Positions 76 through 6,962 of a stretch of 7,924 bases of DNA are shown piece by piece. Numbering within the stretch: the first letter of the stretch is position 1; each line of letters starts with the position of its first letter. The stretch comes from Chloroflexota bacterium. GTDB lineage: Bacteria > Chloroflexota > Anaerolineae > Anaerolineales > Anaerolineaceae. The DNA lies in contig JAEXTI010000188.1 in NCBI GenBank assembly GCA_023406965.1, positions 1-7,924 of the forward strand, given 5' to 3'. Position numbers and translations under genes: made by a program. A model generated the notes under the pieces. It made no database searches, was not told the DNA's origin, and saw only the letters and a program-made list of their open reading frames with translations.

Positions 76-79
76 GTAG
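58..79 (+). repeat. Isolated REP head of the ACACC type at the edge of the array
   Basis: The sequence GTAGGGGCGACACC (58-71) has the same GTAGGGGCG head as the other repeats here but the extension ACACC. It is followed by TCCC and the GTAG that opens the first 211-bp element. The 18 bases at 62-79 recur inverted at 6119-6136 with one mismatch, so this is a real repeated junction rather than a chance match. No inverted partner is visible within the first 57 bases. Confidence 0.55.
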
Positions 80-286
80 GGGCGGGTCTGTAATGCAGGC
101 TCCTCAATGCCATCTTCAGGCACCACCGCGGGCTCATTTCATTCATCCACCTGGCAGACCCGCCCGGTTGCGCCAGGCTCGCTTGGTTGCCTCACCCGGC
201 GGGTCTCTCGTGTAGATTCACACGTGCAGCCCGCAAAGATCGTGATCAACCCTCAACCCTCCCCCGTCTTAAAGACCCGCCGCTAC
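76..286 (+). repeat. 211-bp composite REP element, copy 1
   Basis: The arms alternate: GGCGGGTCT at 81-89, AGACCCGCC at 156-164, GGCGGGTCT at 198-206 and AGACCCGCC at 272-280. Outer and inner pairs can each fold as hairpins, as in BIMEs (paired REP units). The inner pair 156-206 encloses a loop beginning CGGTTGCGCCAGGCTCGC. Of the three left copies this one matches the distant inverted copy best in the central part. Confidence 0.85.
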
Positions 287-305
287 GCAGAAGGTGACAG
301 CTCCC

Positions 306-516
306 GTAGGGGCGGGTCTATAATGCTGGCTCCTCAATGCCATCTTCGGACGCTACCGCGGGCTCATTTTTTTCATCCACCCGCCAGACCCGCCCGGTTG
401 CGCCAGGCCCGCTTGGTTGCCTCGCCCGGCGGGTCTCTCGTGTAGATTCACGCGTGCAGCCCGCAAAGATCGTGACCAACCCTCAACCCTCCCCCGCCTT
501 AAAGACCCGCCACTAC
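306..516 (+). repeat. 211-bp composite REP element, copy 2
   Basis: It has the same length and arm order as copy 1, with inner arms at 386-394 and 428-436. It differs in a short cluster after CCATCTTC, where it reads GGACGCTACC instead of AGGCACCACC, and in a pure T run before the inner hairpin. The first of these variants is shared with the distant inverted copy at 6142-6352. The closing foot is ACTAC rather than GCTAC. Confidence 0.85.
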
Positions 517-535
517 ACAGAAGGTGACAGATTCC

Positions 536-745
536 GTAGGGGCGGGTCTATAATGCCGGCTCCTCAATGCCATCTTCAGGCACCACCGCGGGCTCATTTT
601 TTCATCCACCCGCCAGACCCGCCCGATTGCGCCAGGCCCGCTTGGTTGCCTCACCCGGCGGGTCTGTTGTGTAGATTCACGCATGCAGCCCGCAATAATC
701 ATGATCAACCCTTAACCCGCCCCCGCATTAAAGACCCGCCGCTAC
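536..745 (+). repeat. 211-bp composite REP element, copy 3 (210 bp), overlapping the transposase stop
   Basis: This is the copy next to the transposase gene. It is one base shorter because of a T-run deletion. Its closing foot, on the minus strand GCGTAGCGGCGGGTCTTT, contains the TAG stop codon of the transposase (744-742). Its distal 60 bases are the most diverged of the three left copies. Transcripts leaving the transposase gene would run into the hairpin arms, so the element could also act as a 3'-end structure for the operon. That last role is inference. Confidence 0.85.
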
Positions 746-1224
746 GCAGAGGTTTTGTCGCGCAACTCGTCTTGGTTCCAATTCATGGGGTTGGCCAGGA
801 TGTAATTATGGATGGCCTGATAATCGGCTTCGTTTCGGATCACATGCTCGTAAAAACTCCGCTGCCAGACCGGTTGACCCGTTGTTTTTCGCAACTGATT
901 AATCCACCGCGCCGAAAACGACTTAAACCCCCGAATCACCTCGGTCAATGGCTGCCTCTTACCTTCTTCCACATCCCGAATGATCACAATCCCATGCACA
1001 TGGTTCGGCATAATGCAAAACGCGCCCAACTCCACATGGGGATAATGAGACGGCAGGCCAACCCACACTTTTTCCGCGATCTTACCGTATTCGCTTAGCA
1101 CCGGGACATCATTAACCACCCGGCCCAACAAATAATTACGATCATGAGTCACTATCGTCACGAAATACGCCCCTGGCGACGAATAATCATACTCCGGCAA
1201 GCGTATGGATCGCCGCTGGTGCAT
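742..1224 (-). CDS. REP-associated tyrosine transposase (RAYT, Y1/HUH family)
   Basis: A 160-residue single-domain protein of the IS200-like Y1 transposase superfamily, RAYT branch. It opens with a typical RRSIRLPEYDYSSPGAYFVT strand. The HUH metal-binding motif is seen in MPNHVHGIV (His75, His77). The nucleophile is probably Tyr141 in HNYILANP, preceded by the conserved WQRSFYEHVIRNEADY helix. Family members nick and rejoin single-stranded REP palindromes with a GTAG foot; here exactly such palindromes start at its 3' end. The ATG has a weak GAGAGA ribosome site (1228-1233) and lies 10 nt after the lipoprotein stop, so it may be co-transcribed with the operon. Length and catalytic residues look intact. 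No terminal repeats of a classical insertion sequence surround it, which favours a domesticated RAYT over an IS200/IS605 element. Confidence 0.92.
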   Translation of the reverse strand: MHQRRSIRLPEYDYSSPGAYFVTIVTHDRNYLLGRVVNDVPVLSEYGKIAEKVWVGLPSHYPHVELGAFCIMPNHVHGIVIIRDVEEGKRQPLTEVIRGFKSFSARWINQLRKTTGQPVWQRSFYEHVIRNEADYQAIHNYILANPMNWNQDELRDKTSA

Positions 1225-1234
1225 TTTTCTCTCG

Positions 1235-2281
1235 CTACGGTTCCAAAATCACCCATCTTGTGGACACCACCACCGACCCCGGCAAGCGCGGGTCGGTCTG
1301 GCGCAACGTGATGCGCACGTTGGTCGGGCCGCTCACATTATAGGGAATCTCCAGGTAAAACGGGCTATGGCTGATCTCCGGCGTAGGCGGGTCAACGGTG
1401 AACTTCTTGGTCGTAATCGCCGCGCCGTTTTCTGTCACCAACTCGACCGTCAGGCTCTGCTCGTTCACCGGGCGCGCCAGCCCGCTCACAATCAGCGTGC
1501 CGCCCGAAATAATCATCCCTTCTTCGGGGTAGCGCACAATGAACGGTTCCTGGTTCACCGCCGATGGGAAAATCTCTGCCCGTCCCACCGACAACAGCAC
1601 CAACTCCACCGACATCAGATAAAGCACTCGCCCGGCGCTGTCATTGGTCACCACTTGCAAGCGGGCCGTTTCGGCAGCCGTCTGAATCTCGAACGGGATC
1701 TGCGGATAGAAAGAAATCGAGCGCCCCATATATCCTTTGAAATCCTTCACCTGCCGGGCAATCAAGCGCCCGTCCTCGCCGATTAATTCCACACGCACCA
1801 ACCCGTCCTCGCCCGGCACGGCGTAGATTTCGGCCTGGATGGGCGAAGTCACCCGCGAAAGCAGTCCCGGTCGGGAAATATACAGCCTCGGCGCGGGCGG
1901 CAGGGGGGTGTTGGTAATCGTGGGGGTGTTTGTGATGGTGGGCGTGCGGCTTGGCACGCGTGTATTGGTCGGGATGCGCGTGTTGGTGGGCGCAGGCCCC
2001 GGCGTCGCCGTGTCACCGGCCGTTGGGGTGCGGCTGGGAGCGCGCGTTTTGGTCAGCGTCGCCGCCAGGCTGGGCGTAGGTGTAGAGGGGTCCAAGGTCG
2101 GTGTTTCTGTGACGGTGGGAGTTACCGATGGCGTTAAGGTTAAGGTAGCCGAGGGCGTCATAGTGGCGGTGAATAGGTTACTAAACGAGGCCCCACCCTG
2201 GCAGCCGCCAAGCGTCTGCGTCAGCAGCATGAACAAAACGGCCATCCAGGCCAGGTGTCTGCGCGGCATAGCCCGTTTCAT
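1235..2281 (-). CDS. Secreted lipoprotein with Thr/Pro-rich linker and C-terminal Ig-like (Gmad2-like) region
   Basis: A 348-residue predicted lipoprotein. Residues 1-26 form a signal peptide (KR, RRH, then a hydrophobic core) ending in LGGC, so Cys27 is the likely lipidated residue. Residues about 40-130 are a low-complexity linker of TPT, TNT and SRTPT units with little secondary structure expected. From about 131 onward two beta-rich segments follow (131-240 and 243-348). The second, with PFIVRYPEEGMIISGGTLIVSGLARPVNE, resembles the Gmad2/Ig-like fold found in envelope proteins; this assignment is moderate. The ATG overlaps the TGA of the upstream oxidoreductase gene (ATGA, 2278-2281), which supports the start and implies translational coupling. 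The protein probably sits on the outer face of the membrane, with the linker as spacer. Its function is unknown. The stop codon TAG lies in CCGTAGCG just before the transposase. Confidence 0.8.
   Translation of the reverse strand: MKRAMPRRHLAWMAVLFMLLTQTLGGCQGGASFSNLFTATMTPSATLTLTPSVTPTVTETPTLDPSTPTPSLAATLTKTRAPSRTPTAGDTATPGPAPTNTRIPTNTRVPSRTPTITNTPTITNTPLPPAPRLYISRPGLLSRVTSPIQAEIYAVPGEDGLVRVELIGEDGRLIARQVKDFKGYMGRSISFYPQIPFEIQTAAETARLQVVTNDSAGRVLYLMSVELVLLSVGRAEIFPSAVNQEPFIVRYPEEGMIISGGTLIVSGLARPVNEQSLTVELVTENGAAITTKKFTVDPPTPEISHSPFYLEIPYNVSGPTNVRITLRQTDPRLPGSVVVSTRWVILEP
1890..2165 (-). repeat. Degenerate Thr/Pro-coding low-complexity repeat inside the lipoprotein gene
   Basis: The DNA encoding the linker is strongly strand-skewed (G/T-rich on the plus strand) and made of short degenerate units such as those for TNTRIP/TNTRVP and TPTITN/TPTITN. 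Such tracts can change length by slippage or unequal recombination, so the linker length may differ between strains. The antisense strand is open for 153 codons only because of this skew. Confidence 0.6.
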
Positions 2282-3147
2282 CCTGCCACCTGCGGCATGA
2301 CCTGCTGCGCGAATGTATTCATGGCTCGCTCTCGCTCCGCCTGGCTTTCCGCCAGGAAGTGCAGCACAGCGTAATTTACTCCCGCGGCCGCATAGGCCCG
2401 CAACCCTTCCAACACCTGCTCTGTCGAGCCGGAAAGCGGAACTCCATCGACTGCCTGGCTGCCCAACGCCACCCGCAAGCGTGGCGCCACCGTGAAGGGG
2501 CGCTGACCGATGAGCGGGCGGGCCACTTTCAGCAGCCGCTCGATCTCGTCAGCGGGCAAATCCACCGGGTGCCAGCCATCCGCCAGCAGTACCGCCCGGC
2601 GCAACGCCCGCGCCGAGTTGCCCGCCACCCACAACGGCGGCCCGCCTGGGCGCAGCGGCCCCGGCGCAAAAGCCACCTTCTCAAAATTGTAATACTTGCC
2701 CTGGTAACTCACCACCCGGTTGCCGCGCCACACCGTGCGCAGCACCTGGATGGCCTCATCCATACGCTTGCCGCGATTGGTAAAGGCGTACCCCAGGTTG
2801 GCGTATTCGCCCTTCGACCAGCCAATTCCCACCGCCAGCATCGTCCGCCCGCCCGAAAGCACGTCCAGCGTGGCCAAAGCCTTGCCTGCTTCCAAGGGGT
2901 TGCGTTGCGGCAGCACCAGCGCCGACACGCCCAGCTTGACTCGCGCGGTCAACCCGGCCAGGTAGCCGAGCGTGGTCAGCGCTTCAAAGATGGGCGTGTA
3001 AGCCGCCGATTCCTCCTCCGGCAAAGCCAGGTGGTCGGTCGCCCAGACCGAATCAAAGCCCAGGCTTTCGGCTGCCAGCGCAGTATCCACGGTTGCCAGC
3101 CGCCCGGCCTGCGCGCCGTAATTGGGAAGAATCACACCGAATTGCAT
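2278..3147 (-). CDS. LLM class F420-dependent oxidoreductase (luciferase-like monooxygenase fold)
   Basis: A 289-residue TIM-barrel enzyme of the bacterial luciferase-like superfamily, closest by pattern to the Rv2161c-type group of probable F420-dependent oxidoreductases. Visible family signatures are the N-terminal strand MQFGVILPNYG, SVWATDHL (30s), VLPQRNPLEAGKALATLDVL (79-97), the GIGWSKGEYANLGY segment (107-120) followed by RGKRMDEAIQVLR, and PPLWVAGNS (170-178) with LADGWHP. The family uses F420 or FMN in cytosolic redox reactions; the substrate cannot be read from sequence, and FMN use remains possible. The start lies 6 nt after the stop of the M32 peptidase gene, and the 3' end overlaps the lipoprotein start by 4 nt, so it sits mid-operon. 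The ribosome site is weak (TAAGAA overlapping the preceding stop), consistent with coupling to the upstream gene. Confidence 0.88.
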   Translation of the reverse strand: MQFGVILPNYGAQAGRLATVDTALAAESLGFDSVWATDHLALPEEESAAYTPIFEALTTLGYLAGLTARVKLGVSALVLPQRNPLEAGKALATLDVLSGGRTMLAVGIGWSKGEYANLGYAFTNRGKRMDEAIQVLRTVWRGNRVVSYQGKYYNFEKVAFAPGPLRPGGPPLWVAGNSARALRRAVLLADGWHPVDLPADEIERLLKVARPLIGQRPFTVAPRLRVALGSQAVDGVPLSGSTEQVLEGLRAYAAAGVNYAVLHFLAESQAERERAMNTFAQQVMPQVAG

Positions 3148-3153
3148 AAATTC

Positions 3154-4656
3154 TTACAGCCCGTAAATCTGGCTGTACTTTCCTTGTAAATAACGCAAAT
3201 ACGCCGGGGCCGCGATCTTTGACCCCGTCACCTTCTGCACCAGGGTTTGCGGCTCAAACTTAGAACCCACATTGTGGATATGCACCCGCAGCCAATTGAG
3301 TAGAGCGTCGAACTTGCCCTGCTCGATATCCCCTTGCAGGTTCGGCAGTTCACGCTGAATGCGCTCCCACAGTTGGGCAGAGACCAGGTTGCCCAAGGCA
3401 TAAGTGGGGAAGTAGCCAAAGTAGCCTGCCGACCAATGCACATCCTGGAGCACGCCGTGAGCGTCGTCGGGCGGGGTCAGGCCAAAAAACTCCTGCATGC
3501 GCGCGTTCCACGCTTCGGGCAGGTCCTTCACCTGCAAGCTGCCCTCAATCAAGGCCAACTCCAGCTCAAAACGCAGCATAATGTGCAAGTTGTAGGTAGC
3601 CTCGTCTGCCTCCACGCGGATCAACGAAGGTTCCACCCGGTTGACGCCCTTGTAAAAAGTATCAAGGCTCACATTGCCCAACTGAGTCGGGAATTTGCTT
3701 TGCAGGCGGCTGTAAAAATACTTCCAGAAGGGCAGCGAGCGCCCAACCAAATTTTCCCACATGCGCGATTGTGACTCGTGCACCGCCATTGAAGCGCCAT
3801 CGGCCAACGGTGTGCGCCGCAAAGACGGGGCAAAACCCAGCTCATACAGGGCATGCCCGCACTCGTGCATTGTGCCGAACAGCGCTGTGCCGATGTAGTC
3901 CGGCTGCACCCGCGTGGTGATGCGCACATCCCCGCTGCCAAAACTGGTAGTGAAGGGATGCGCCGATTTATCCTGCCGCCCGCGCTCCCAATCGTAACCA
4001 AAACGGGTTATCACTTCCACGCCAAAATCCCACTGGGCTTGTTCATCATACTTTAATTTCAAAAAGGACGAATCCACCTGTGGTTTGGCTGCAATTGCCT
4101 TCACCAAAGCTACCTGTTCGGGGCGCAGTTCGGCGAAAATAGCTTTCACTTCTGCCGTCTTCATCCCGCGCTCGAAATCATCCAGCAGCGGATCGTAGAC
4201 ATGCTCGTAAGGCGTGAAGAAACTCGCGTATTCGCGGCGCATTTCCACCACGCGCTCAAGGGACGGCTGGAACGAAGCGAAGTCGTTGTTCTGGCGGGCC
4301 TTCACCCAGGCTTCTTGTGAAAGGGTGGTCAACTGGGCGTAATCACTCACCCAGCGTCCCGGCACCTTGGCGTTTTTCTCAAAGCCGTGCTTGGTCACCC
4401 ACACCAGGCAAGCGTCGTCCGATTCGGGGTCCAGCCCTGCCGCATAAGGCTCCAGGTCCGACAGCAAGTTCGCCATCTCATCCGAGGTAGCCATCTCGTG
4501 CCCAATGCGCGCCAGCGTTGCCAGTTGATTACCGCGGTCCTCTGCCCCTCCGGGCGGCATATAGGTCTGCTGATCCCAACCCAGAACGGCCGAGGCGTGT
4601 CCCAGATCGCTGATCTCACCCAACAAGGCTTTGAGGCGTTGCAGTTTCTTTTCCAC
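3154..4656 (-). CDS. M32 family metallocarboxypeptidase (carboxypeptidase Taq)
   Basis: A cytosolic zinc carboxypeptidase that removes C-terminal residues from peptides. All M32 landmarks are present (numbering from the GTG start): HPFTT and DVRIT near 233-247, the zinc motif HECGH at 264-268, and HESQSRMWEN with the third ligand Glu294, 26 residues after the second His, as expected for the family. The IRVEADE and HGVLQDVHW motifs follow near the C terminus. I chose GTG at 4656 because AGGAAAGGA lies 6 nt upstream and this gives 500 residues, the usual family length. An upstream in-frame ATG at 4713 would add 19 residues (MRPDRFPKPVR...) translated from a 33-bp palindrome and is very unlikely. 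The gene lies 67 nt after serA and 6 nt before the oxidoreductase gene, so it is probably in one transcript with both. Confidence 0.93.
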   Translation of the reverse strand: MEKKLQRLKALLGEISDLGHASAVLGWDQQTYMPPGGAEDRGNQLATLARIGHEMATSDEMANLLSDLEPYAAGLDPESDDACLVWVTKHGFEKNAKVPGRWVSDYAQLTTLSQEAWVKARQNNDFASFQPSLERVVEMRREYASFFTPYEHVYDPLLDDFERGMKTAEVKAIFAELRPEQVALVKAIAAKPQVDSSFLKLKYDEQAQWDFGVEVITRFGYDWERGRQDKSAHPFTTSFGSGDVRITTRVQPDYIGTALFGTMHECGHALYELGFAPSLRRTPLADGASMAVHESQSRMWENLVGRSLPFWKYFYSRLQSKFPTQLGNVSLDTFYKGVNRVEPSLIRVEADEATYNLHIMLRFELELALIEGSLQVKDLPEAWNARMQEFFGLTPPDDAHGVLQDVHWSAGYFGYFPTYALGNLVSAQLWERIQRELPNLQGDIEQGKFDALLNWLRVHIHNVGSKFEPQTLVQKVTGSKIAAPAYLRYLQGKYSQIYGL

Positions 4657-4662
4657 GAGGAT

Positions 4663-4671
4663 TCCTTTCCT
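4663..4671 (-). promoter_or_regulatory. Ribosome binding site that decides the GTG start of the M32 gene
   Basis: On the minus strand AGGAAAGGA is followed by six bases and GTG GAA AAG. It lies downstream of the in-frame ATG at 4713, so it can only serve the GTG at 4656. It is the main argument for the shorter protein. Confidence 0.65.
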
Positions 4672-4677
4672 GATGAA

Positions 4678-4710
4678 AGACCTGACAGGTTTTGGAAACC
4701 TGTCAGGTCT
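4678..4710. repeat. 33-bp perfect intergenic palindrome (15-bp arms, 3-nt loop)
   Basis: The left arm AGACCTGACAGGTTT (4678-4692) and right arm AAACCTGTCAGGTCT (4696-4710) are perfectly complementary around TGG. The palindrome sits between the serA stop and the M32 ribosome site. From memory, palindromes built on CCTGACAGG...CCTGTCAGG are scattered between genes in many Chloroflexota and other environmental genomes; that is recollection, not a search. Read on the minus strand, only TTTC follows the stem, so it is a poor intrinsic terminator, although it could attenuate transcription or protect the serA mRNA end. Confidence 0.85.
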
Positions 4711-4723
4711 CAAGCGAAATAAT

Positions 4724-5665
4724 TTATGCTACCTTCCAACGCAGGGCGTCACCCTTCAACGCCGCCACCACTTCCGAGGCAATATCGAGGCCCGCGCGAC
4801 CCTGCGCTTCCAGCGTCTGCGCGCCAATGTGCGGGGTAGCGATCACCCGTGGATGCGCCACCAGAGGGGTCAATCCGGGCGGCTCGGCGGTAAACACATC
4901 CAGCGCTGCCGCGGCCACCTTGCCCGATTCGAGCGCTGCCAGCAAAGCATCTTCGTCCACAATTCCGCCGCGGGCCGCGTCCACAATGCGCACGCCGTCC
5001 TTCATCTTGGCAAAGGCCTCCGCGTTGAGCATGTTTTTGCTCGTGGCGGTCAAGGGCAGATGCAGGGTGATGAAATCAGACCGCTGAAGCAACTCGTCCA
5101 GCGAAACCAGTTCCGCACCCGTTTCTCGGGCTTCCAAAGGCTCAACGTTGGGATCAAAGGCAATGATGCTCATGCCAAAAGCCATGCAGCGCTTGGCAAC
5201 CGCCGTACCGATACGGCCAAAGCCAATCACGCCCAGCGTCTTCTCAAACAATTCCACACCTTCAAACTCTTTCTTCAGCCACTTGCCAGCCTTCATTGAG
5301 GCATCGGCCCGGGGCACCTCGCGAATCATGGAGAGCATGATCGAGAGGGTCAACTCTGCTACAGACACCGTGGTCGCCAGCGGAGAGTTCACCACCGTCA
5401 CGCCGTAGGTTTGGGCGGCTTTCAAATCGATGTTGTCCACCCCGATCCCGGCCCGGCCAACTACCTTCAACTTCTTTCCGGCCTCAAAAACCGGCAAAGT
5501 CACCTTGGTGCGGCCGCGTACGATGAGCGCGTCATACTCGCCAACTTCCTTCAAGAGGTCATCCGCAGAAATGCCACTGCGGTCTGCGACTTCCCCCACC
5601 TGGCTCAGGATGGCTTTGCCACCCTCATCCAGGCCGTCTGTGAGCAGGATTTTCCAGGTAGCCAT
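4724..5665 (-). CDS. serA: D-3-phosphoglycerate dehydrogenase, short form without ACT domain
   Basis: A 313-residue D-isomer-specific 2-hydroxyacid dehydrogenase. It probably oxidises 3-phosphoglycerate to 3-phosphohydroxypyruvate with NAD in the first step of serine synthesis. The Rossmann motif GFGRIG is at 148-153, with the NAD-selecting Asp171 after it (IIAFDPN). The catalytic residues are Arg232 (DAARGG), Glu261 (AEPP) and His279 (TPHIGA). The VGRAGIGVDNID segment (69-80) matches SerA-type enzymes. The C-terminal ASB/ACT regulatory domains of long SerA are absent, so allosteric serine control is not expected. AGAGGAGA lies 7 nt before the ATG and supports the start. It is the first gene of the minus-strand cluster. 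Another 2-hydroxyacid dehydrogenase specificity is possible because the family is hard to separate by sequence. Confidence 0.88.
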   Translation of the reverse strand: MATWKILLTDGLDEGGKAILSQVGEVADRSGISADDLLKEVGEYDALIVRGRTKVTLPVFEAGKKLKVVGRAGIGVDNIDLKAAQTYGVTVVNSPLATTVSVAELTLSIMLSMIREVPRADASMKAGKWLKKEFEGVELFEKTLGVIGFGRIGTAVAKRCMAFGMSIIAFDPNVEPLEARETGAELVSLDELLQRSDFITLHLPLTATSKNMLNAEAFAKMKDGVRIVDAARGGIVDEDALLAALESGKVAAAALDVFTAEPPGLTPLVAHPRVIATPHIGAQTLEAQGRAGLDIASEVVAALKGDALRWKVA

Positions 5666-5867
5666 ATTATATTCTCCTCTTAGTCCATACGGGATGATCA
5701 GGGTGAGCGGGAGCTTCCCTCCACCCCAAATTTTACCTTAATTTAGCTGAATCAATGCATTTCGAATCCCCCGCAATTATAGCGCGGCCTTGTCTATACA
5801 ACCCTGCTTTTAATAAGTGGTTGCGCCAGGCTGCATTCTTATTAATGACCACTATCAACGCAGATTA
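5666..5867. other. Upstream region of serA, non-coding
   Basis: About 200 bases with no coding signal. It contains the serA ribosome site (5673-5680), a short GGGAGCTTCCC inverted repeat (5709-5719), an AT-rich stretch and a candidate -10 box. At 5819-5832, GGTTGCGCCAGGCT repeats 14 bases of the inner loop of the first 211-bp element (166-179) in the same orientation, possibly a remnant. Confidence 0.45.
5776..5801 (-). promoter_or_regulatory. Candidate serA promoter (-10 TATAAT)
   Basis: On the minus strand a perfect TATAAT (5781-5776) lies about 110 nt upstream of the serA start. The best -35-like hexamer, TTGTAT (5801-5796), is only 14 nt away, shorter than the usual 16-18, so the assignment rests mainly on the -10 box. 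If correct, the five minus-strand genes share a leader of roughly 100 nt. Confidence 0.35.
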
Positions 5868-5915
5868 GCCTCGCCCCCGCCGCTAATTCTTGCGCTGCCG
5901 CTGTAGGGGCGAGGC
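5868..5915. repeat. REP hairpin 1 of the GCCTCGCCCC family
   Basis: Inverted arms GCCTCGCCCC (5868-5877) and GGGGCGAGGC (5906-5915) match perfectly. The right arm carries the GTAG foot (5903-5906). The loop contains CCGCTAATTCTTGCGCT, shared with hairpin 3. The unit belongs to the same broad GTAGGGGCG class as the 211-bp elements but has the extension AGGC. Confidence 0.8.
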
Positions 5916-5949
5916 GAGATTCGACAACCCAATTTAACCAATACCATTC

Positions 5950-5990
5950 GCCTCGCCCTCCTATAATTATCTGCGCAACCAGGGCGAGGC
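5950..5990. repeat. REP hairpin 2 of the GCCTCGCCC family
   Basis: Arms GCCTCGCCCT (5950-5959) and AGGGCGAGGC (5981-5990) are perfectly complementary. The GTAG feet are degraded, and the loop TATAATTATCTGCGC is a diverged version of the loop in hairpins 1 and 3. It reads as an older copy of the same unit. Confidence 0.75.
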
Positions 5991-6026
5991 TAACCAATCC
6001 CTCCCTCAAATTGCATCCACGATTCC

Positions 6027-6074
6027 GCCTCGCCCCTACCGCTAATTCTTGCGCTATTCATGTACGGGCGAGGC
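6027..6074. repeat. REP hairpin 3 of the GCCTCGCCCCTAC family
   Basis: Arms GCCTCGCCCCTAC (6027-6039) and GTACGGGCGAGGC (6062-6074) pair at 12 of 13 positions. The loop CGCTAATTCTTGCGCT is nearly the same as in hairpin 1. A decayed single arm follows at 6097-6122 (GATTCCGCCTTGTCCCTAT), matching 6014-6039. Confidence 0.8.
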
Positions 6075-6118
6075 TACAGGAATCCCAATCATCTCCCATC
6101 CGTGATTCCGCCTTGTCC

Positions 6119-6136
6119 CTATGGGAGGTGTCGCCC
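6119..6136 (-). repeat. Inverted copy of the ACACC-type junction
   Basis: On the minus strand GGGCGACACCTCCCATAG matches 62-79 at 17 of 18 positions. At the left edge this junction opens a 211-bp element; here it opens a decayed AGGC-type unit instead, so the junction has been combined with different repeats. Confidence 0.6.
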
Positions 6137-6141
6137 TTTCC

Positions 6142-6352
6142 GTAGCGGCGGATCTTTAACGCGGGCAATGGAGGTAGATCGCTCAGGATCTTTATGGGCT
6201 GTGCGAGTTAACCTACCCGAAAGACCCGCCGGGTGAGGCAATCTAGCGAGTCTGGCGCAACCGGGCGGGTCTGCCAGATGGATGAATGGAATGAGCCCGC
6301 CGTTGCGTCCGAAGATGGCGGTGAAAAGCCAGCATGAAAGACCCGCCCCTAC
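6142..6352 (-). repeat. 211-bp composite REP element, copy 4, inverted and distant
   Basis: It opens with GTAGCGGCGGATCTTTAA and closes with AGACCCGCCCCTAC, and is exactly 211 bp, like copies 1 and 2. Arms are at 6221-6229 (AGACCCGCC), 6264-6272 (GGCGGGTCT) and 6339-6347 (AGACCCGCC); the first arm carries one substitution. Reverse-complemented, the inner hairpin and the adjoining segment down to GCCATCTTC align closely with the left array, while 6160-6218 is much diverged. It lies in the 5' intergenic region beyond serA, opposite in orientation to the left array. Confidence 0.85.
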
Positions 6353-6365
6353 CGCTAATTCTGGG

Positions 6366-6375
6366 CTGCCCCTAC
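6366..6375 (-). repeat. Additional single GTAGGGGC head beside copy 4
   Basis: CTGCCCCTAC gives GTAGGGGCAG on the minus strand, 14 bp beyond the end of copy 4 and preceded by the shared CCGCTAATTCT motif. No inverted partner arm is evident, so it is probably a solo or truncated unit. Confidence 0.45.
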
Positions 6376-6393
6376 CGGAAATGCCCCGATCTG

Positions 6394-6402
6394 TGGCATA
6401 AT
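6394..6402 (+). promoter_or_regulatory. Candidate extended -10 promoter for the repeat-protein gene
   Basis: TGGCATAAT has the TGn plus CATAAT layout of an extended -10 element and lies about 50 nt before the start codon at 6455. No good -35 hexamer is seen at the usual distance. The site begins just after the repeat block ends, as expected if the repeats stop at the gene's control region. Confidence 0.3.
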
Positions 6403-6454
6403 CAAAATGCGGTGTAGGGCGGCGCTGCGAGATTTGTTAATTCTGGAGGAACCC

Positions 6455-6934
6455 ATGAGCGAAGAACAAACTTCCACACCCGTTGAACCTTCTGCCGAAG
6501 AAGCGCCGCAGATCGTTTCTGAGGTGAGCGGAGAAACCGTCCACTTCCAATCGGGGCTGGCAGGCAGCGTCTCGGCGCAGCAGGACGCCGAAGTGACCGA
6601 TTCGCTGGTTGGCGGGATCGCCGCCGGGCGCGACGCGCAGGCCACCAACACCCTCGTTATGGGCATGGCCGTTGGGCGCGATGCCACCCTGACCAACTGC
6701 TTCACCGCCACGGCAACGGTGGGAGGCAGCGTCGAAGCGGCCAACAGCTCGATGGTCACTGTCTTTGGTAATCAAATCAGCGCCAGGAACAGCTCCATTG
6801 GCGTAGCCCTGGGGCGTGAGATCAATCTGGGCGAAGGCGCGCAAGTCACGCTCACCACCCGCCAGGCTGTGGCAATGGGCGCTGCCTTTGGCGTGGCCTT
6901 TGCCATTTTTAATCGCCTGCTCCGCCGCCGCTAA
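6455..6934 (+). CDS. Hypothetical membrane-anchored protein with six 16-residue repeats
   Basis: A 159-residue protein I do not recognise as a named family. Residues 1-33 are acidic and Ser/Thr/Pro-rich. Residues 35-130 divide into six 16-residue units, clearest in SLVGGIAAGRDAQATN and TLVMGMAVGRDATLTN; the last two drift. The alternating small and hydrophobic residues with recurrent Gly, Asn and Asp turns suggest a small beta-solenoid. Residues about 137-154 (QAVAMGAAFGVAFAIFNR) form one hydrophobic segment followed by LLRRR, so a C-terminal membrane anchor with the repeats in the cytosol or in a tail-anchored topology is plausible. The start is ATG at 6455 because GGAGGA lies 4 nt before it; an upstream ATG at 6407 lacks a ribosome site. 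Similar repeat proteins are, from memory, common and uncharacterised in Chloroflexota. It converges on the kinase gene with 28 nt between them. Confidence 0.8.
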   Translation: MSEEQTSTPVEPSAEEAPQIVSEVSGETVHFQSGLAGSVSAQQDAEVTDSLVGGIAAGRDAQATNTLVMGMAVGRDATLTNCFTATATVGGSVEAANSSMVTVFGNQISARNSSIGVALGREINLGEGAQVTLTTRQAVAMGAAFGVAFAIFNRLLRRR

Positions 6935-6962
6935 ACCACAGGCCAACCGACACACGCAATTT

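Follow-up and report, generated by a model that had tools for sequence, protein, structure and literature searches.

A putative RAYT/REPIN locus with long-loop hairpins in an Anaerolineaceae bacterium

Known RAYT systems and the repeats of the window

RAYT/REPIN systems, tandem REPINs beside RAYT genes and GTAG repeats in Chloroflexi are already in print. In Pseudomonas fluorescens SBW25 (PMC3116915), two inverted REPs make up the replicative unit, REPINs form tandem clusters together with their flanks, a REPIN cluster lies beside each of three RAYTs, and singlets are read as remnants. RAYTs are described as single-copy and vertically inherited, with REP singlets again taken as remnants (PMC8049555), and it is on record that a RAYT can be lost while its REPs persist, and that RAYTs turn up at new chromosomal sites (PMC3686654). 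REPtrons occur in most species that host GTAG repeats, and GTAG-23 of Thermomicrobium roseum, a member of the Chloroflexi, is clustered at few loci (PMC3733652). In the Marinomonas REPtrons Ma and Mb, REPs are concentrated beside the RAYT, which the authors read as recent arrival, and the loops of Ma are called large; cleavage falls next to the hairpin at CT or CA, and the roles of the loop differ (PMC8266576). In TnpA_REP subclass 2.4, a single palindrome has GTAG/CTAC ends and REPs lie within the gene itself (PMC6006769).

Here we analysed a window of 7,924 nt, the whole stretch of DNA from position 1 to 7,924 of contig JAEXTI010000188.1 of an Anaerolineaceae genome (Chloroflexota; assembly GCA_023406965.1). 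It resembles SBW25 and Marinomonas in that REPs are gathered beside a RAYT gene, and T. roseum, of the same phylum, in its clustered GTAG repeats. Three direct REPIN copies on the plus strand adjoin the gene: copy 1 at 76-286 (halves 76-165, plus, and 197-286, minus), copy 2 at 306-516 (halves 306-395, plus, and 427-516, minus) and copy 3 at 536-745 (halves 536-624, plus, and 656-745, minus). Their mutual identity is 91-92%, and their period of 230/229 bp consists of a 211/210-bp element and a 19-bp spacer (287-305 and 517-535). The fourth copy is inverted (6142-6352, minus strand), lies 5.4 kb off and is 79-82% identical to the tandem copies. All four start with GTAG, end with CTAC and contain four alternating GGCGGGTCT/AGACCCGCC-type arms, as an earlier note on this DNA had stated; its description of a gene abutting three 211-bp elements holds for the three direct copies, except that the third measures 210 bp and the gene overlaps its foot. 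In each element a pair of GTAG-footed hairpins stands in inverted order around a centre, which is 31 nt long in every window copy; the stems measure 10 bp and the loops about 64-69 nt. Since the spacers of the tandem trio also match, the trio by itself does not fix the ends of the element. It arose by tandem duplication, with the 19-bp spacer included.

Two GTAG-footed hairpins in inverted order form a REPIN, which here measures 190-212 bp because each hairpin loop is about 64-69 nt long. In SBW25, the two conserved 16-mers of a GI REPIN start 71 bp apart (PMC3116915). The GTAG families of PMC3733652 are set apart by their published loop lengths of 2-20 bp, while Ma REPs are 42 and 38 nt overall and Mb REPs are shorter (PMC8266576). 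Subclass 2.4 has both feet on one palindrome (PMC6006769), whereas the window carries its feet on paired halves; double-foot REPs and REP inserts in the gene, as in that subclass, are seen in relatives, and the window's RAYT gene has no insert. The earlier note had taken the locus for REPtron-like in a non-proteobacterium, and this is supported by the array beside the RAYT and the further copy 5.4 kb off, with dispersal seen in the sister genome described below. As to its suggestion of a larger, non-proteobacterial version of the system, GTAG repeats in Chloroflexi had been reported before (PMC3733652). Since the double-hairpin unit is the published REPIN, mobility of the whole module is the standard view and not a new type.

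The RAYT gene and its product

The RAYT gene lies at 742-1224 on the minus strand and encodes a 160-aa TnpA_REP-like HUH-Y1 transposase. The protein matches Pfam Y1_Tnp (PF01797) at 3.6e-8 with 34 bits, above the cut-off of 23. NF047646 matches with 75.4 bits (E 4e-21), below its curated cut-off of 80, and the IS200 model scores far lower, at 20.5 against a cut-off of 55. Structure comparison against a PDB library shows that the protein has the fold of TnpA_REP, with 4er8 as its best match; 4er8 is also matched in sequence, where Tyr141 pairs with Tyr115 by hand count of the alignment. As the earlier note had read from the sequence, the HUH/Y1 gene is complete: His75, His77 and Tyr141 are invariant in all 35 aligned sequences (35 of 120 listed homologs, the window's RAYT among them). 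Residues Trp120, Gln121, Glu126, His127 and Arg130 are identical to W94, Q95, E100, H101 and R104 of E. coli TnpA_REP (5/5, hand count), which belong to its GTAG-recognition region (PMC6006769).

The N-terminus is short: relatives start MKFDPKIHHRRSIRL, while the window protein starts MHQRRSIRL, without the six residues after the first Met and without the upstream hairpin of the relatives. A homolog with 83% identity (P0002) has the same short N-terminus. At the other end, the CTAC foot (742-745) of REPIN copy 3 takes in the gene's stop codon (742-744). The gene starts 10 bp past the stop codon of a co-directional upstream gene, so read-through from that gene may serve its expression. The G+C content of the RAYT gene is 0.51, and the six neighbouring ORFs measured are all higher, at 0.53-0.65.

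We consider it likely that this locus is a RAYT/REPIN system, with a TnpA_REP-type HUH-Y1 protein and a GTAG-footed hairpin as its predicted substrate. By analogy with the published biochemistry of other RAYTs, the protein would bind GTAG plus the stem on single-stranded DNA, would nick beside the hairpin through Tyr141, and would copy or move the REPIN elsewhere. Loops as long as these, about 64-69 nt, may be tolerated above the short recognised stem, or they may be specifically read. A REP class with a fixed stem and foot and a near-constant long loop could serve as a test of what a RAYT reads.

Dispersed repeats and the RAYT site in a sister genome

A close-relative metagenome-assembled genome, Anaerolineaceae bacterium isolate Zod_Metabat.414 (G016, the genome of locus L050), aligns with the window over 1236-5835 at 87% (contig 19) and over 6096-6936 at 85%. 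It contains the ortholog of copy 4 (C19:22874-23085) at 83% identity, with the ends and the downstream gene alike. A half-unit model of 90 positions (R1) detected 49 half-units in G016, spread over 26 contigs, at E<=0.001 among the 150 of 1976 candidates that were scored. With one partial match these make 50 half-units, 30 of them in 15 REPINs and 20 as singlets, meaning half-units without a partner at the model threshold, some of which may have decayed partners. A gapped hairpin pattern gave 23 matches in G016 and none with a reversed control. Lengths of 183-198 bp and centres of 11-15 nt are found in all but one of the 15 REPINs (183 being a truncated match), and the remaining one, the ortholog of copy 4, measures 212 bp with a centre of 32 nt. 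Since 14 of 15 are shorter, 211 bp is a local form belonging to one sublineage. The earlier note had proposed the whole 211-bp module as the mobile unit; a double hairpin with GTAG/CTAC ends is genuinely dispersed, but its length of 211 bp is that of one sublineage, and 20 of the 50 half-units had no partner found.

The ends of the element are set by these dispersed copies, which have sharp GTAG feet and differing flanks. GTAG is read in 54 of the 58 feet of window and G016 half-units, a count biased upward because the R1 seeds were picked with a GTAG pattern. The 58 come from 86 R1 matches, with antisense and weak matches and a truncated 32-bit match (L275 182-246) omitted and one 28.6-bit partial match (L265) included. 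Both GTAG and CTAC ends are present in 17 of the 19 REPIN pairs (four in the window, 15 in G016), the others being one with a CTAT end and one from a truncated match. A DNA search of G016 that was independent of GTAG gave nine matches, eight of which begin at query base 1 or end at base 211. Over 49 half-units, each of the four foot positions carries 1.7-2.0 bits of information, and none of the 30 columns outside exceeds 0.37 bits. The random ends that the earlier note had set against its own reading are thus not what is found.

The stems covary in a way that fits pairing inside each half. Of 31 half-units, 12 have G-C as their outermost stem pair, 14 have C-G and 5 another combination; column pair 9-91 is changed on its two sides in 4. 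Across 18 REPINs, pairing within halves holds at 345/360 positions and pairing across halves at 302/360, with G-T counted as a pair; the information and pairing analyses cover 18 of the 19 REPINs and 49 of the 50 G016 halves. Pairing of the outer arms of the 211-bp unit with each other was rejected on this poorer fit, though energy folding of the whole 211 nt prefers one long hairpin over the two-hairpin form. Two alternative folds are also described for REPINs in the SBW25 report (PMC3116915).

The earlier note had also set against its reading an abundance of repeats in relatives lacking such a RAYT, and this is half seen. G016 has its roughly 50 half-units, while its best full-length match to the window RAYT reaches only 49% and another gene gives two partial matches, of 52% and 43%, in a metagenome assembly that may be incomplete. 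Other REP types adjoin three further RAYT genes or gene pieces of G016.

We also compared the site of the RAYT and its array, here called the block, between the two genomes. On the left, the 3' end of a plus-strand gene occupies 1-39 (stop codon 37-39) and aligns to the end of a 388-aa ORF on G016 contig 19; we take its product to be L,D-transpeptidase-like. The left junction (40-75) consists of 18 bp without a G016 counterpart, followed by an 18-bp stretch that resembles the array spacers and the flank of copy 4. On the right, the junction at 1225-1238 comprises the 10 bp between the RAYT start and the upstream gene's stop codon (1235-1237), with CTAC at 1235-1238. That gene (1235-2281, minus strand) encodes 348 aa with 93-94% identity in G016; its product is presumably lipoprotein-like and matched neither Pfam nor NCBIfam. 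Both stop codons counted, 11 bases separate the two neighbours' coding ends in G016, against 1201 in the window, where the stretch contains the RAYT and three REPINs. In G016's family, the left neighbour was found in 15 of 30 loci fetched around the right neighbour. The gap measures 11-112 bases in 13 of these 15 genomes, G016 counted in each figure, and 412 and 510 bases in the other two, neither of which gave a RAYT match at E 10.

Since the gap is 11 bases long in G016 and does not exceed 112 in 13 of the 15 genomes, the block probably arrived recently, and the simplest reading of the alignment is that it was inserted in the window's lineage after the split from G016. The tandem copies are 83-85% identical to the G016 contig 19 copy, and the orthologous copy 4 is 83% identical to the same copy. 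Being as distant from it as copy 4, the array sublineage seems older than its present place, so the block may have been relocated within the genome or acquired from elsewhere. No target-site duplication was seen by eye at the block junctions. The site of copy 4 is readable in both genomes and occupied in both, and comparing the window with G016 revealed no site from which a single REPIN is missing. With the RAYT locus in one and a nearly empty site in the other, these two close relatives offer a clean case for studying how RAYT genes reach new places.

Long-loop hairpins at other RAYT genes and alternative explanations

In the first 29 RAYT loci examined (24 from Chloroflexota, five others), GTAG hairpins mostly have loops of 2-3 nt and a few of 32-37 nt; one locus, L001, has a hairpin with a 67-nt loop. 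Automatic classes over 86 RAYT loci gave 57 with short loops, 13 with loops of 28-40 nt, 10 with none and six with long loops, two of which (L023 and L061) we read as artefacts; L023 was taken out of the long-loop group by hand since its lengths stem from a tandem short-loop array. A hairpin of 94-95 nt with a 65-67-nt loop, as against 2-3 nt in most RAYT relatives, lies directly upstream of the RAYT in six genomes (G001, G381, G341, G021, G008 and G345). In G359 and G257 it falls within the RAYT match, as it does in G436 by a model hit only. GTAG stands at both ends of the one hairpin in eight of these nine genomes (the hairpin finder found none in G436), an arrangement called a double foot (PMC6006769). 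The model places one copy each in G001, G381, G021 and G008 and three in G341 at E<=0.001, and G008 has a weaker second place inside its RAYT. This REP class, found at the RAYT genes of nine other genomes, looks new: in the parts of the open-licence REP/RAYT literature that were covered, no hairpin with a loop of 64-69 nt was found reported.

At least six dispersed long-loop hairpins (L317, L323 and L326-L329) are present in a further genome, G412, and two of five distinct ones have GTAG at both ends; no RAYT was found in the six fetched loci or among the matches listed in the order-wide RAYT search. That search gave RAYT matches in 267 of 400 genomes of the order. The model matches 9 of the 400 at E<=1e-4, among 10 candidates scored per genome, and a family-wide model search of 147 genomes, with 29 candidates scored in each, picked out G016 and, beyond it, two isolated weak hits. 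A strict REPIN pattern gave no match in the 400 genomes, a sample that does not include G016, and this says little since the same pattern recovers only 2 of 13 G016 loci. A GTAG REP palindrome lies inside the RAYT gene at 20 of 29 and 19 of 30 loci (hand count; L280 and L281 belong to the latter). Among the first 29 loci it usually sits between HuH and Tyr, some 250-300 bases into the match.

The window RAYT falls apart from the other long-loop RAYTs in two trees. The first used 84 of 86 rows, with short ones omitted; the second used 21 of the 86 loci and 50 of the homologs P0002-P0059, with homologs of 200 aa or more omitted and P0015 and P0063 left out as duplicates of L001 and L276. In the second tree, the window, L001, L276 and L277 all sit within one supported clade of 53 rows (96/95). 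A single clade of these four was rejected (p-AU 3e-7), with the caveat that long branches are in play and that the group was defined once the first tree was known; the long-loop class therefore does not simply follow the RAYT tree.

Several of these results count against the RAYT/REPIN reading, namely the repeats in G016 without a close RAYT, the G412 hairpins without a RAYT match among those listed, the NF047646 score under its cut-off, the separation of the long-loop RAYTs in the trees and the energy fold into one long hairpin. An alternative account is that the RAYT is not the partner of the repeats and landed in or beside an older REPIN array spread by another, now lost RAYT. In its favour, G016 carries some 50 half-units while its full-length RAYT matches reach 49% at most, the array sublineage is about as old as the split from G016, or older, and the four long-loop RAYTs tested fail to form one clade. 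We think it unlikely, however, as the three REPINs are flush with the gene, whose stop codon lies in a foot, the same long-loop hairpin lies beside or inside related RAYTs in nine genomes, and all four long-loop RAYTs belong to the supported 53-row clade.

It is far less likely that the repeats are ordinary intergenic DNA, tandemly duplicated and recombining without transposition, and that the RAYT lies next to them by chance. The trio, spacers included, plainly results from tandem duplication, and RAYT matches are common in the order, but copies on 26 G016 contigs with differing flanks, sharp GTAG ends and covarying stems speak against such an origin. It is hardly credible that the element is a structured RNA, or a MITE from a different transposase family whose hairpins are incidental: the size of 190-212 bp and the inverted-repeat architecture are MITE-like and the loop sequence is partly conserved, yet an Rfam search of the window gave zero matches up to E 1, and the GTAG foot, REPIN layout and RAYT neighbourhood all suit a RAYT/REPIN system.

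Within the preferred RAYT/REPIN reading, movement of the whole block is plausible, and the block would have come to where it now lies once the lineages of the window and G016 had split. A bolder version, which we regard as rather doubtful, has the RAYT and three REPINs travelling as one unit into the gap between convergent genes after that split, with the REPtron acting like a whole insertion sequence. Long-loop hairpins would then form a stable REP class in their own right, belonging to Anaerolineales-type RAYTs, that became dispersed at least twice, as paired REPINs in G016 and as single, mostly double-footed hairpins in G412.

The window also holds other repeats. A second REP type, GTAGGGGCGAGGC / GCCTCGCCCCTAC, occupies the intergenic stretch at 5868-6121, ahead of copy 4, and also adjoins two RAYT pieces at G016 contig ends (C135 and C105). 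A short palindromic repeat at 4673-4710 recurs in locus L128 (17256-17293), in both orientations.
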